The notes under the pieces: model-generated
What the model was told of the DNA's origin: nothing
Database searches by the model: none
The model's input: only the letters and a program-made list of their open reading frames with translations
NCBI GenBank assembly: GCA_003265685.1
Contig: KZ836109.1
Location: 1-64,000 of the forward strand
Origin: Piscinibacter caeni
GTDB taxonomy: Bacteria > Pseudomonadota > Gammaproteobacteria > Burkholderiales > Burkholderiaceae_C
DNA: 64,000 nt
Reading direction: 5' to 3'
Made by a program: the position numbers and the translations under genes
In this document: positions 42,766 to 54,010 of the stretch, piece after piece
How the letters are laid out: each line of letters begins with the position of its first letter
How positions within the stretch are numbered: position 1 is the stretch's first letter

Positions 42766-45369
<2,604 letters not shown>

Positions 45370-49365: not shown

Positions 49366-50001
49366 ATGTACGAACGATCCTTGCTGGACCTCGGGGCGCC
49401 GCTCGCGCCCGGAGAACTCTGCGTGCTGCCGGGCGGCGCGGGGCTGGTGGTGTTTGCCCACGCCGACGGCGAGGCGCGCACCACCCCCCGCAGTGCCGAC
49501 CTGGCGCTGCGCCTGCAGCGGCGCGAACTGGGCACGCTGCTGTTCGACCTGCTCGGGCCGGACGAGCCGAACGCCACGCTGGCGCAGGACGTGCCCCTGC
49601 TGGCGGCCCGCCTCGAGCAGGCCCTGGACGCCCTGCCGCCGGCCCTGCAGAGCGAGCCGATCGGCCTGATCGGCACCGACGCCGGGGCCGCGGCGGCCCT
49701 GGTGGTGGCCGCGCGCCGACCGCAGCAGGTGCGCGCCGTGGTCTCGCGCGGCGGCCGTCCGGACCTGGCTGGCGCGGCGCTCGGCGACGTGCGCGCGCCG
49801 ACGCTGCTGCTGGTCGGCGCGGCCGATGCCGAGGTGCTCGAGCTGAATCGCCAGGCCTACGCGCGGCTGCGCGGCGAGAAGCGCATCGACGTGGTGCCGC
49901 GTGCCACGCACCTGTTCCTCGAGGCCGGGGCGCTCGACGTCGTGGCCCAGCACGCCGGGGACTGGTTCCTCGCCCATCTCGGGCCCCCGCCTGCGCGCTG
50001 A
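49366..50001 (+). CDS. alpha/beta-hydrolase-fold protein with Asp in place of nucleophilic Ser
   Basis: 211 residues resembling the small dienelactone-hydrolase-like family often seen in stress/PHB gene clusters. The nucleophile elbow reads GLIGTDAGAAAALV where GxSxG is expected, putting Asp105 at the serine position. The other triad residues seem kept: Asp in LVGAADAEVLELN and His in VPRATHLFLE. Family landmarks RAVVSRGGRPDLA and GDWFLAHL are intact. Enzymatic serine-hydrolase activity is therefore unlikely, and a haloalkane-like Asp mechanism is only a speculation. Paralogue of the next gene, 44 bases on. Confidence 0.75.
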   Translation: MYERSLLDLGAPLAPGELCVLPGGAGLVVFAHADGEARTTPRSADLALRLQRRELGTLLFDLLGPDEPNATLAQDVPLLAARLEQALDALPPALQSEPIGLIGTDAGAAAALVVAARRPQQVRAVVSRGGRPDLAGAALGDVRAPTLLLVGAADAEVLELNRQAYARLRGEKRIDVVPRATHLFLEAGALDVVAQHAGDWFLAHLGPPPAR

Positions 50002-50032
50002 GCGCGCTCAACGCGTGCGCCGGGCGGCAGCC

Positions 50033-50038
50033 TAGATT
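50033..50038 (+). promoter_or_regulatory. -10-like hexamer for the second hydrolase-like gene
   Basis: TAGATT, then GCCCCCC, then ATG at 50046. There is no Shine-Dalgarno sequence; same leaderless layout as at dnaE and thyA. Confidence 0.45.
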
Positions 50039-50045
50039 GCCCCCC

Positions 50046-50585
50046 ATGGTCGGCACACGGCAGCAGGACGCGCCGGCCGGTCCGGTGCTGATGGCGGCGC
50101 CGGCCGGCTCGCGGCACGCGAACGCGGTGGCCGCCGCGCTGCTGCGGCAGCGGCTGTGTGTGATCGCCGTGCAGGGGGCCCCGCGCTCGGCCGCGGCCTT
50201 CGAGGCGGCGCTGCGGCAACTGCTGCGAGCCCCCGACCTGACGGGCCAGCGCGTCGGCCTGTACGGCTGCGGGCCGGCGGTGTTGGCGGTGCTGCGCGTC
50301 GCCGCCGCGGCGCCCGCCCTGGTGGCCGCGGTGGTGGCCTGCGAAGGCCGGCCGGACCGGGCCGGGCCGGCGCTCGCCGCCGTGCAGGCGCCGACCCTGC
50401 TGCTGCTCGGCGCCGGCCAGGCCGCTCCGCTGGCCGCCGGACGCGCCGCGATGCAGCGCCTGGACTGCCGCAAGCGCCTCGAGGTGGTGCCCGGTGGCGT
50501 CGACGAGCCGGCGGCGCTGGCCGCCCTGGCCGAGCTGGCCGCGGACTGGTTCGCCAGCCACCTGGCCGAGCCGCCGCGCGCCTGA
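50046..50585 (+). CDS. degenerate alpha/beta-hydrolase-fold paralogue
   Basis: 179 residues aligning along the C-terminal two thirds of the preceding protein: GLYGCGPAVLAVLRVA at the nucleophile elbow (Gly76 where Ser is expected), AAVVACEGRPDRAGPALAAVQAPTLLLLGAG, and VPGGVDEPAALAALAELAADWFASHL, where the catalytic Asp and His positions are also changed. All three triad residues thus appear lost while the fold-forming segments remain. Probably a non-catalytic partner or binding protein; it could also be a decaying copy, although the frame is intact. Confidence 0.7.
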   Translation: MVGTRQQDAPAGPVLMAAPAGSRHANAVAAALLRQRLCVIAVQGAPRSAAAFEAALRQLLRAPDLTGQRVGLYGCGPAVLAVLRVAAAAPALVAAVVACEGRPDRAGPALAAVQAPTLLLLGAGQAAPLAAGRAAMQRLDCRKRLEVVPGGVDEPAALAALAELAADWFASHLAEPPRA

Positions 50586-50604: not shown

Positions 50605-51282
50605 TCAGCCGAGCGTGGTGTCGCCGGCCAGGCCGTGTTCCATGCCGTAGCGGATCAGCGCCGCGGTGTTGGGCAGCTGCAGCTTGTCCATGATGCGGCT
50701 CTTGTGCGTGCTGACCGTCTTGATCGACAGGTGCAGCGCGTCGGCGATCTGCTTCGGCCGCTCGCCGGCCACCAGGCGGCGCAGCACCTCGAGCTCGCGG
50801 TCCGACAGCCCGGCATGCGCCTCCGGTTCGCTGCCGCGCTGCAGCTGCAGCACCACGCGCTCGGCCAGCGCCGGCGTCACGTAGGCGCCGCCGCTGGCCA
50901 CCTTGCGCACCGCCTGCACCAGCTCGGCGGCGGCGCCGTCCTTGGTGACATAGCCGTTGGCGCCGTTCTTGAATGCGCGCATCGCGTACTGCTCCTCCGC
51001 ATGCATCGACAGCACCAGCACGCCGACACGCGGATACCCGGCCCGGATGCGCCGGATCAGCTCCAGCCCGTTCATGCCCGGCATCGACAGGTCGACGATC
51101 GCGATGTCCACCGGCGCCTGGCGCAGCACCTCGAGCGCCTGGAAGCCGGTGCTGGCCTCGGTGATGGTCCAGCCCTCGGCCGTGGCGTCGAGGATGCGCT
51201 TCATGCCCTCGCGCACGATCGCGTGGTCGTCGGCGATCAGCAGGCGCAGCGGCTCGCGGCGCGGGCTCAGGGGGTCGGCCAT
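50605..51282 (-). CDS. LuxR/NarL-family response regulator
   Basis: 225 residues: receiver with acidic pocket IADDH, phospho-acceptor Asp64 (IAIVDLSMPGMNG) and Lys in NGYVTKDG, then a LuxR-type helix-turn-helix (LSDRELEVLRRLVAGERPKQIADALHLSIKTVSTHKSRIM). Its start overlaps the end of the kinase gene by 16 bases, so the pair is co-translated and surely cognate. Converges with the hydrolase-like pair. Target genes unknown; the LuxR-type relation to the regulator at 18.6 kb is only family level. Confidence 0.92.
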   Translation of the reverse strand: MADPLSPRREPLRLLIADDHAIVREGMKRILDATAEGWTITEASTGFQALEVLRQAPVDIAIVDLSMPGMNGLELIRRIRAGYPRVGVLVLSMHAEEQYAMRAFKNGANGYVTKDGAAAELVQAVRKVASGGAYVTPALAERVVLQLQRGSEPEAHAGLSDRELEVLRRLVAGERPKQIADALHLSIKTVSTHKSRIMDKLQLPNTAALIRYGMEHGLAGDTTLG

Positions 51283-52748
51283 GGTTCGTCGTCGGCCGCC
51301 GCGGCGGCCTGCGTGTCGTACGCCGGCGGGAGGTGCACGCGCACCCGGGCGCCGCCGCCCGGCGGGTTGTCGATCTCGAGCCGGCCGCCGAGCAGTTCGG
51401 CGCGCTCGCGCATGCCCAGCAGCCCCCAGCGGCCCTCGCGCTGCAGCGCACGCTCGGGGAAACCGACGCCGTCGTCGTGCACGCTCAGGTGCAGCCCGTC
51501 GTCGCGCCGCCGCAACTGCACGCTGGCGTGGCCGGCGCGGGCGTGGCGCGCCACGTTGGTCAGGGCCTCCTGCACCATGCGGTAGAGCGCGATCGCGACC
51601 CGCTCGTCGACCTCCGGCACCTCGTCCAGATCGACCTGCACGCGGATGCCGAGCCGGCGCGAGGCCTCGATCGCCAGCCACTCGATGGCGGCGTTCAGGC
51701 CCAGGTCGTCGAGCATCAGCGGCCGCAGGTCGGCGGCGATGCGGCGCAGCGCGGCCACCGTCTCGTCGAGCATCGCGAGCATGGCCGGCAGGCGCGAGCC
51801 GCCGCCGGACCGGCTGGACAGCTCCATCTTCAGCGCCGTCAGCCGCTGGCCCAGCTCGTCGTGCAGTTCGCGCGCGATGCGCCGGCGCTCGTCCTCGCGC
51901 GCCTCCATCACGCTGACCGAGAGCTGCCGCAGCCGGCGCTGCAGGCGCCGCGCCTCGCGCGCCTCGGCGCGCTGCCGGGTGACGTCGGCCACCACCATCT
52001 GCACCGTGGTGCGGCCGTGGTCGGGCAGGGCGGCCAGCGCGATCTCGACCTCGCGCGCCTGCCCGTCGGGGCGCGCCAGGCGTCCCTGCACCTGGCCCAT
52101 GCCGTGCCCGCCCGCCAGCACGCCGGTCACCTGCTCGCGCAGTGCCGCGTGCGACTCCGGCTGCAGCAGCGAATAGACCGACTCGCCCACCAGCGGGTGG
52201 GCGTCGCCGAGCAGCCGTGCGGCGGCCCGGTTGGCGAACACGATGCGGTCGCTGTCGGCGATCCACAGTGCCACCGGCGCCAGCTCGAACACCGCCCGCA
52301 GGCGCTGCTGCAGCCTGCGCAGCTCGTCCTGCAGGCCACGTTCGCCGCTCAGGTCGCGCAGCAGCGCGGCGACGAAGCGGCGCGTCCCCTGCGGGCCGGC
52401 CACGTCGACCCCGCTGAGCCACACCTCGGCGGGGAACTCGCGGCCATCGGCGCGCAGCGCCACCACCTGGCGGTGCGCGCGCACCGCGTGCTCGTCGGCG
52501 CTCGCGGCCGACCAGTCGCGCACCAGCTGCTCGTGCAGGCCGCGTTGGCGCGAGGGGAGGAAATCCGCCAGCGGCCGGCCGAGCGCCTGTGCGGCGCTGC
52601 AGCCGAAGATGCGCTGCGCCGCCGGGTTCAGCGCGACGACCTGCTGGCCTTCGTCGACCATCAGGATGGCCTCGTGCGCGGCCTGCAGCACGCCGCCCAG
52701 GGGCAGCGCGAACAGGTCGAGACCTTCCGCCGGCGTCGCGTCGTTCAT
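51267..52748 (-). CDS. cytoplasmic PAS-PAS sensor histidine kinase (NarL type)
   Basis: 493 residues without membrane helices. Two PAS domains (about 15-130, AAHEAILMVDEGQQVVALNPAAQRIFG; about 150-265, ELAPVALWIADSDRIVFANRAAARLLG), HisKA_3 with His296 in RIARELHDELGQRLTALKME, and an ATPase domain with N box YRMVQEALTNVARHARA and G box DDGVGFPERA. The soluble form suggests an internal signal such as redox state or oxygen, but I see no haem or Fe-S motif. The start ATG (MNDATPAEGLDLF) is chosen over an upstream non-conserved extension. Confidence 0.92.
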   Translation of the reverse strand: MNDATPAEGLDLFALPLGGVLQAAHEAILMVDEGQQVVALNPAAQRIFGCSAAQALGRPLADFLPSRQRGLHEQLVRDWSAASADEHAVRAHRQVVALRADGREFPAEVWLSGVDVAGPQGTRRFVAALLRDLSGERGLQDELRRLQQRLRAVFELAPVALWIADSDRIVFANRAAARLLGDAHPLVGESVYSLLQPESHAALREQVTGVLAGGHGMGQVQGRLARPDGQAREVEIALAALPDHGRTTVQMVVADVTRQRAEAREARRLQRRLRQLSVSVMEAREDERRRIARELHDELGQRLTALKMELSSRSGGGSRLPAMLAMLDETVAALRRIAADLRPLMLDDLGLNAAIEWLAIEASRRLGIRVQVDLDEVPEVDERVAIALYRMVQEALTNVARHARAGHASVQLRRRDDGLHLSVHDDGVGFPERALQREGRWGLLGMRERAELLGGRLEIDNPPGGGARVRVHLPPAYDTQAAAAADDEPWPTP

Positions 52749-52933: not shown

Positions 52934-53692
52934 ATGCCCGTCGCGTCCCTGTCCGAGTCGCTCAATGACCTGCTGCGCCTGTGGGGCGGCGACTCGCCGC
53001 GAGCCGCCTGCGCCGGGCAGACGGTGCTGCCGGTGTGGCGCGTGCGCGCCGGCGCGCCGCTGCTGCTGGAGGGCGCCCCGGCGGACCTGGTGCACGTGGT
53101 GCGCACCGGCTCCTTCAAGTGCCAGCGGGTCGGCGAGGACGGCTACGAGCAGGTGCTGGCCTTCCTCGGCCCGGGCGACGTGCCCGGCATCGATGCGCTC
53201 GGGTCGGGCCGGCAGAGCTGCGGCGTGGTCGCGCTGGAGGACAGCACGGTCTACGCGCTGCCGGCCCGCGAGCTCGACCGGCTGCGCCTGCTGCACCCGG
53301 CGCTCGACCAGGGCCTGCAGCGCGCCGTGGCGCGCCAGCTCGCCGATGCGCGCCATGCGGTCGAGATGATGTCGGCCGTGGCCGCCGAGGTGCGGCTCGG
53401 GCGCTTCCTGCTCTGGCTGTCGGAGAACATGGCCGCGCGCGGACAGTCGCCGCGCCGTCTGCTGCTGCGCATGAGCCGGCGCGACATCGCCAGCCTGCTG
53501 GGCATCGCCCACGAGACCGTCAGCCGGGCCTTCTCGGCGCTGACCGAGCTGGGGCTGCTGCGCGTGGAGAACCGCGACGTCGAGCTGCTCGACCTCGACG
53601 GCCTGCGCCGCTGCACACGCGCCACGCGCAGCACGCTGGTGGACCTGCCGGCCACGGCCGCGGCGCGGCACGCGCCGGTGCTGGCGGCCTGA
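52934..53692 (+). CDS. Crp/Fnr family transcriptional regulator
   Basis: 252 residues. Cyclic-nucleotide-binding-like domain (about 30-145: RVRAGAPLLLEGAPADLVHVVRTGSFK, VLAFLGPGDVPGIDALG) and a winged helix (MSRRDIASLLGIAHETVSRAFSALTELGLLRVENRDVELLD) with the E-x-x-S-R recognition-helix pattern of FNR-type proteins. The N-terminal four-cysteine Fe-S motif of true FNR is absent, so oxygen sensing by an Fe-S cluster is not expected. GGAG precedes the ATG. Divergent from the PAS kinase. Confidence 0.9.
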   Translation: MPVASLSESLNDLLRLWGGDSPRAACAGQTVLPVWRVRAGAPLLLEGAPADLVHVVRTGSFKCQRVGEDGYEQVLAFLGPGDVPGIDALGSGRQSCGVVALEDSTVYALPARELDRLRLLHPALDQGLQRAVARQLADARHAVEMMSAVAAEVRLGRFLLWLSENMAARGQSPRRLLLRMSRRDIASLLGIAHETVSRAFSALTELGLLRVENRDVELLDLDGLRRCTRATRSTLVDLPATAAARHAPVLAA

Positions 53693-54010
53693 TCAGCCCA
53701 GCTGTTCGCTGCCGCGCTCGAGGAAGGGCGCCCACGGCGCCCACCAGGCCTGCAGCAGGGGCCCGCCGGCCCGCAGCAGCTCGTCGCTCACGCCGGGCCA
53801 GGCGGCCGGCGGCCAGGCCGCGGTCGGCGCCGACAGGGCGTCGAGCCAGGCCAACCAGGCCCGGGCGGCGACCTGCTGCTGCTGCGCCCAGTAGCCCAGC
53901 AGGGCCGCGTACCCGTCGCGCTGCTGATCGATCCAGGCCGCGAGCGCCTCGTTCGAGTCGGAGCGGACGTCGATCGCGGCCGCCTCGGCCGCCGGCTTGC
54001 CTCTTGCCAT
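53693..54010 (-). CDS. tryptophan-rich small protein, function unknown
   Basis: 105 residues with nine Trp, mostly in amphipathic stretches (AAWIDQQRDGYAALLGYWAQQQQ, RAWLAWLDAL, WPPAAWPGV, LLQAWWAPWAPFLERG). No signal peptide or clear membrane helix. The helical, Trp/Ala-rich character is compatible with an amphipathic granule- or membrane-surface protein of phasin type, which is a guess only. Its stop abuts the convergent Crp/Fnr gene stop with no gap; the thyA gene is 23 bases upstream. Confidence 0.6.
   Translation of the reverse strand: MARGKPAAEAAAIDVRSDSNEALAAWIDQQRDGYAALLGYWAQQQQVAARAWLAWLDALSAPTAAWPPAAWPGVSDELLRAGGPLLQAWWAPWAPFLERGSEQLG

Follow-up and report, generated by a model that had tools for sequence, protein, structure and literature searches.

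Two adjoining 2o2g-family alpha/beta-hydrolase-fold proteins without the elbow serine beside a FixL-like PAS kinase locus in Piscinibacter caeni

Two neighboring forward-strand genes in the window (the whole stretch of DNA analyzed, 64,000 nucleotides) encode protein A (49366..50001, +), a dienelactone-hydrolase-like protein of 211 aa with an alpha/beta-hydrolase fold, and protein B (50046..50585, +), a 179-aa member of the same family, that of the solved structure 2o2g. Both open reading frames are present and intact, as originally predicted, with 44 bases between them; B probably starts at the ATG at 50046 rather than at the TTG at 50037, because its orthologue in the congeneric genome G004 matches it from the first residue. 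The two genes converge on that of a LuxR/NarL-type response regulator (50605..51282, −; REC and GerE domains, 225 aa), B ending at 50585 and the regulator at 50605, and the regulator start overlaps the stop of a sensor histidine kinase gene (51267..52748, −) with the architecture PAS-PAS-HisKA_3-HATPase. A gene for a Crp/Fnr family regulator (52934..53692, +) is divergent from the kinase gene and is followed by one for a Trp-rich protein of 105 aa (53693..54010, −), for which no Pfam or NCBIfam family was found at E 0.1. Relatives of the Trp-rich protein occur solely in G004 and G002 among 71 wide stretches, adjoining the same block, with dN/dS of 0.76 against G004 and 0.47 against G002 (values without an interval); it probably lies outside the wider module.

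Alpha/beta-hydrolase models in Pfam and NCBIfam match A just below cut-off, and no model from either collection matches B at E 0.1. The sole solved structure that matches both proteins by sequence is 2o2g, a “dienelactone hydrolase” from Anabaena variabilis, with phmmer E-values of 4.6e-45 for A (45% identity) and 2.9e-17 for B (residues 55–173), B having one further, unrelated row at 0.12. The AlphaFold2 model of A (mean pLDDT 95.1) is closest to 2o2g (Z 32.5, rmsd 1.5, 206 residues) and its 211 aa align end to end with the 216-residue structure, and 2o2g is likewise the best Foldseek match of the B model (2.3e-11; mean pLDDT 90.6). Haloalkane dehalogenases (ranks 7, 11, 22, and 31) and strigolactone-type receptors (ranks 15, 37, 41, and 45) appear among the structure matches of B, far below 2o2g. 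By sequence and fold, both proteins are members of the 2o2g family, the likeness extending over fold, length, and most pocket residues. They differ from 2o2g in the active site: A lacks the elbow serine and has a changed oxyanion loop, whereas B lacks the triad and has shortened loops. No report on the substrate of this hydrolase family was found in the literature, and the function of the 2o2g family or of its serine-less members is not reported in the abstracts surveyed.

Where an active member of the family has Ser-Asp-His, A has Asp-Asp-His and B has none of the three. The original prediction held that serine is missing from both nucleophile elbows (GTDAG and GCGPA), and alignment bears this out. 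The elbow of A is G103-T-D105-A-G107, in which Asp105 aligns with the elbow serine of 2o2g (GASTG) and lies, in the AlphaFold2 model, within a strand-turn-helix elbow (strand 99–103, helix from 106). Asp154 and His182 align with an Asp and a His of 2o2g, in line with the claim that A keeps these two triad residues, and the oxyanion loop reads HADG where HGSG is expected. None of the remaining serines of A (5, 43, 96, and 127) is at an elbow, and Ser127 is a general family residue (present in 99% of 70 serine-bearing rows); the fold prediction and homologue alignment proposed as a check thus place the elbow at 105 and show that the nucleophile does not lie elsewhere. In B, the elbow position reads GCGPA, a Gln occupies the acid position, and the His loop is shortened, so that the reported loss of all three triad residues is confirmed by alignment; its oxyanion loop failed to align.

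Serine is the usual residue in this family. Among the best 80 of 542 confirmed named homologues, 79 carry Ser-Asp-His and one carries Gly-Asp-His, in a sample biased to Ser or Asp elbows because one of the two search patterns demanded one of these residues. The 97 tree rows, which comprise fetched wide stretches and 20 of the named loci, have Ser in 70, Gly in 15, Asp in 4, and other residues in 8. Within the genus of the window, none of the 14 family copies has serine (eight genomes searched, seven with copies; G006 has no family copy, and a weak match in G005, seemingly a different hydrolase, was not counted). Serine in close relatives with decay only in this strain, the pattern that would have spoken against the original prediction, therefore did not occur. 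Strain-specific decay of A and B is rejected, the losses being common to several species and genera and dN/dS lying below 1.

The description of A and B as tandem paralogues stands as far as common family and adjoining position are concerned, but a careful tree sets them in different groups, A in a clade with support of 100/92 and B beyond a 99/95 split. This tree includes 57 of the 97 rows, six serine-less and 34 serine-bearing rows having been left out, and its bootstrap had not settled. Origin of the pair by one tandem duplication is disfavored by the careful tree, yet AU tests of a local A–B duplication do not reject it (p 0.30 in one test; p 0.55 in another, where the constrained tree scored slightly higher, from a set of four in which one finished).

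The A clade consists of eight sequences, namely seven profile matches and L108. The profile, made from six A-like sequences and searched against 399 genomes of the family, gave seven sequences at 335–375 bits, with the next at 255; G423 and G371 were not part of the profile, whereas the other five were and score high by construction. Conservation of Asp105, a further check proposed originally, is partial: Asp is present in five members (G000, G004, and G002 from the window's genus, and G241 and G371 from one other genus), Gly in three (G024, G423, and L108), and Ser in none. Position 34 holds Asp in five members, Asn in two, and His in one, and His32, Asp154, His182, and FLEAG are kept in all eight. 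When six A-clade rows were compared with the 70 serine-bearing rows, departures in five or six of the six were found at positions 33, 34, 36, 46, 74, 104, 105, and 106, with Gly33, Ser34, Ser36, and Ser105 changed throughout. Arg128, Arg131, Asn161, Glu186, and Trp200 are kept in all six, which also have Leu185 in common, a position occupied by Glu in 91% of the serine-bearing rows; most other invariant positions are kept in the clade, some with one or two exceptions. This pattern of changed and kept positions looks like a rebuilt active site rather than erosion. The clade (100/92) is nested among serine-bearing rows, with Paucibacter as its sister (99/91). None of its five members outside the genus adjoins the kinase, and the link of A to the kinase is therefore recent or incidental.

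The B group, which spans four genera, comprises 12 sequences (from seven genomes in the window's genus and five others). All of them lack the serine and the His, and the group is invariant at Arg162, Arg173, Glu175, Pro178, and Trp200 (A numbering). Because 10 of the 12 retain the acid Asp, alignment marks B and its G004 orthologue as the more eroded end of the group, which a further copy in G367 also fits (GTGTG, His replaced). Homologues of the kinase (at least 60 bits) and the regulator (at least 200 bits to that of the window) were found within 10 kb of all 12 B-group copies, compared with 5 of 52 serine-bearing copies in the wide sample, none of 79 in the named loci (flanks of 6 kb or less), 3 of 6 A-clade copies, and 2 of 9 other serine-less copies. 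The association with the kinase-regulator pair noted for the window thus extends to the whole B group; its Fisher p of 1.9e-9 exaggerates the case, since the test takes related rows for independent ones and the group was delimited with the synteny already known. The five serine-bearing copies in kinase loci indicate that a copy at such a locus need not be dead. The hydrolase gene is directly adjacent to the kinase-regulator pair in some B-group loci and not in all. A phosphoribosyltransferase gene separates regulator and hydrolase in six loci (L191, L194, L206, L211, L216, and L280), so the synteny may reflect co-regulation rather than contact.

One genome, G309 (L205), has a serine-bearing copy directly beside the regulator that branches next to the B group and likely represents, judging from this position, the state before serine loss; in G301, one locus carries a dead copy together with one of active type. 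The proposal that A and B form a heteromer fared less well. In the stretches read, five of the eight A-clade members have no second family copy (12.6 to 19.8 kb) and nine of the 12 B-group copies have no A-type copy, and an obligate A–B heteromer is not supported by this occurrence across loci.

We estimated dN/dS for the G000–G004 pair by the Nei-Gojobori method with a codon bootstrap (95% limits), the values being relative guides given a GC content of 73–76% in the locus. The ratio is 0.23 [0.11–0.39] for A and 0.52 [0.32–0.89] for B, compared with 0.20 for the regulator, 0.27 for the kinase, 0.13 for Crp/Fnr, and 0.20 for ThyA; A is under roughly the same constraint as ThyA and the regulator. 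Other B-group pairs gave 0.46 [0.32–0.65] (G137–G306) and 0.31 [0.19–0.47] (G001–G003). Upper limits are therefore below 1 for both genes, and together with losses common to species and genera, this backs the predicted selection for a non-hydrolytic role in the form of a role without serine.

The first PAS domain (PAS1) of the kinase is nearest to the haem PAS domains of FixL and DosP: 12 of the 13 solved sequences that match it are FixL, DosP, or haem-PAS entries, and His72 aligns with the proximal haem His of FixL, the haem ligand of that protein. Among 20 kinase matches in module loci, 16 align at PAS1 and 15 of these have the His, the exception being the distant L106; the aligned His is also present in the G367 kinase. 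PAS domains that bind no haem may also carry such a His motif. The kinase thus resembles an oxygen sensor in its PAS1, and the best solved relatives of the Crp/Fnr protein are FNR-type regulators. A FixL-like PAS kinase, a LuxR-type regulator, and a Crp/Fnr gene alongside recall FixL-FixJ-FixK and the low-oxygen regulators of Burkholderia, as outlined in PMC6127331 and PMC9104464, which describe low-oxygen regulation by FixLJ and Crp/Fnr proteins; the window's kinase differs from FixL in being of the HisKA_3 type and in scoring 59.7 of 850 bits against the NCBIfam FixL model, far below cut-off. For the regulators, the original description of the block as one without a described function was accordingly too strong.

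Our preferred reading, held tentatively and with confidence short of even, is that B is a dead-hydrolase partner of the FixL-like kinase and A a remodeled non-serine binding protein beside it. Both would descend from serine hydrolases of the 2o2g family and would now function in the absence of that residue. Synteny with a kinase, an inactivated site, and a set of conserved residues favor a partner role for B over an enzymatic one; as a catalytically dead protein of this fold, it would partner the PAS histidine kinase or its regulator in an RsbQ-like manner, passing a second cue to, or setting the output of, an oxygen- or redox-responsive kinase-regulator-Crp/Fnr cascade. In A, the pocket retains His32, Arg128, Arg131, Asp154, Asn161, and His182 around a changed oxyanion loop and elbow, and since it keeps His and Asp without the serine, ligand binding without covalent turnover appears the likeliest function. 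Standing beside B in this genus, A would probably feed the same cascade or be one of its outputs. We infer kinase binding, ligand binding, oxygen sensing, and regulation; what we observed are the losses, which several species share, together with purifying selection, the synteny of the B group, the predicted folds, and the PAS similarity.

A precedent is the RsbQ-PAS module (RsbQ-RsbP, or RsbQ with a PAS histidine kinase in Gram-negatives), in which, according to PMC3183031, the alpha/beta hydrolase contacts a PAS domain that belongs to a phosphatase, a cyclase, or, in Gram-negatives, a kinase. The likeness lies in an alpha/beta-hydrolase gene adjoining a PAS signaling protein, and the differences in the hydrolase family, the convergence of the hydrolase gene on the regulator, and the FixL-like PAS1. 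The same source gives RsbQ a conserved Ser-Asp-His triad needed for signaling, which neither A nor B has; B is therefore not an RsbQ, though it may work like one, and this loss counts against our reading, as does the higher dN/dS of B, which also fits relaxed constraint. A more specific version, which we consider unlikely, would make the B group a pseudoenzyme dedicated to feeding a haem-PAS oxygen kinase, independent of RsbQ and joined in this genus by A reading a small molecule, with the kinase integrating oxygen and a metabolic ligand.

A and B might instead be output effectors of the cascade, that is, stress proteins for low oxygen whose role would be that of a scaffold, a chaperone-like factor, or a binding protein, with no part in sensing, an alternative that we regard as plausible but doubtful. 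Hsp20, universal stress, CBS, BON, and alcohol dehydrogenase genes lie near the kinase in other genera, each of them at 2 to 4 of the 19 loci compared (clusters named by Pfam on one representative each), and phosphoribosyltransferase genes recur there as well; this mix recalls a low-oxygen-activated locus of Burkholderia (PMC6127331). However, all of these clusters of stress genes come from loci outside the window's genus. FNR-type boxes (TTGAT-N4-ATCAA, at most one mismatch) are present in 5 of 16 loci scanned, a count made with no chance control; they are perfect in L206 and L192, and in L206 and L211 a box is located ∼150–250 bases ahead of the kinase match. The window has a single such box, at 44735, which falls outside the block. 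In front of A no box is convincing: the best site (49326) has 2 of 10 fixed bases wrong, and 15 such two-mismatch sites occur in the window against 1.8 expected from single-base shuffles; nor is there a convincing box between the kinase and the Crp gene. Output effectors would also leave the serine loss in kinase-linked copies unexplained.

Enzymatic roles for A without serine are less probable. Haloalkane dehalogenases and epoxide hydrolases use an Asp nucleophile, and A shares their GxDxG elbow (GTDAG) with an Asp and His182 in place, so Asp105 could serve in an Asp-His-Asp triad and the word “lost” in the original prediction may be too strong for A. The Asp in five of five A-clade species of two genera and a dN/dS close to that of ThyA would fit this. 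We nevertheless keep a dehalogenase-like A only as a rival and think it quite unlikely, as Gly replaces Asp105 in three of eight clade members with the same His and Asp and the 211 aa leave no cap domain. A also falls outside the dehalogenase and epoxide hydrolase families, its oxyanion loop is altered too, and the haloalkane dehalogenase model scores very weakly (15.8 of 241 bits). Dehalogenases have a GHDWG elbow, with a halide-binding Trp after the Asp that GTDAG lacks; none is among the 50 matches listed for A, which is no exclusion. This fold also includes cofactor-free dioxygenases and hydroxynitrile lyases, which use a His-Asp general base without a nucleophile, and retention of His182 and Asp154 in all eight clade members, while position 105 is Asp or Gly, would suit such an enzyme; we judge it improbable given that position 34 varies too and that no such family model is among the Pfam and NCBIfam matches at E 0.1. 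Least probable is relaxed decay, with A and B as remnants of a lost hydrolase becoming pseudogenes. The ratio for B with its upper limit of 0.89, its lost loops, and the strong variation of the B group between species lean that way, but the aligned copies of the A clade and the B group have open frames, upper limits stay below 1, losses are common to several genera, and A is constrained to a degree at odds with decay.

Within a widespread hydrolase family that is often linked to phosphoribosyltransferase, one branch has no nucleophile and stands beside an oxygen-sensor-like kinase. Should B or A bind that kinase, this would be a second, independent bacterial conversion of a hydrolase to a sensor, parallel to RsbQ-PAS, for which the serine-bearing G309 copy is a natural comparison. 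It would likewise parallel the hydrolase-fold receptors of plants.

Several other family members deserve mention. Members of the 2o2g family are often near or fused with a phosphoribosyltransferase, a domain found in 45 of the 80 named loci (L108–L187; same locus in 31, same ORF in 14) across bacteria and archaea, a count in which L164 was confirmed by Pfam and some loci are short. At L106 (G009:C17), a serine-bearing copy next to a phosphoribosyltransferase gene lies 5 kb from a serine-less copy (GSHSA) that adjoins Crp/Fnr, regulator, and kinase genes of more remote kinship (108, 93, and 63 bits); a second genus may perhaps show this pattern. Classical dienelactone hydrolase has a Cys nucleophile, and L011 (G035:C103:30946-31500), which combines a GSCTG elbow with an intact HGSGS loop, Asp, and His, is a candidate Cys-nucleophile enzyme. 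L094/L193 (G192:C1:1846053-1846661) has Glu in place of the nucleophile (GAEIG) and lacks the His. The window's genome contains a third serine-less paralogue (L002/L103, G000:C3:157432-158016; elbow GVGTG, loop QGSGS), which, like its counterpart L104 (G004:C22), sits after an ABC-2 transporter permease gene (Pfam) and has a G000–G004 dN/dS of 0.51 [0.32–0.85]. In G001 and G003 (L097 and L098), the B-type copy adjoins, in place of A, a very divergent family member (GVNQA/GIGAA) with a dN/dS of 0.42.
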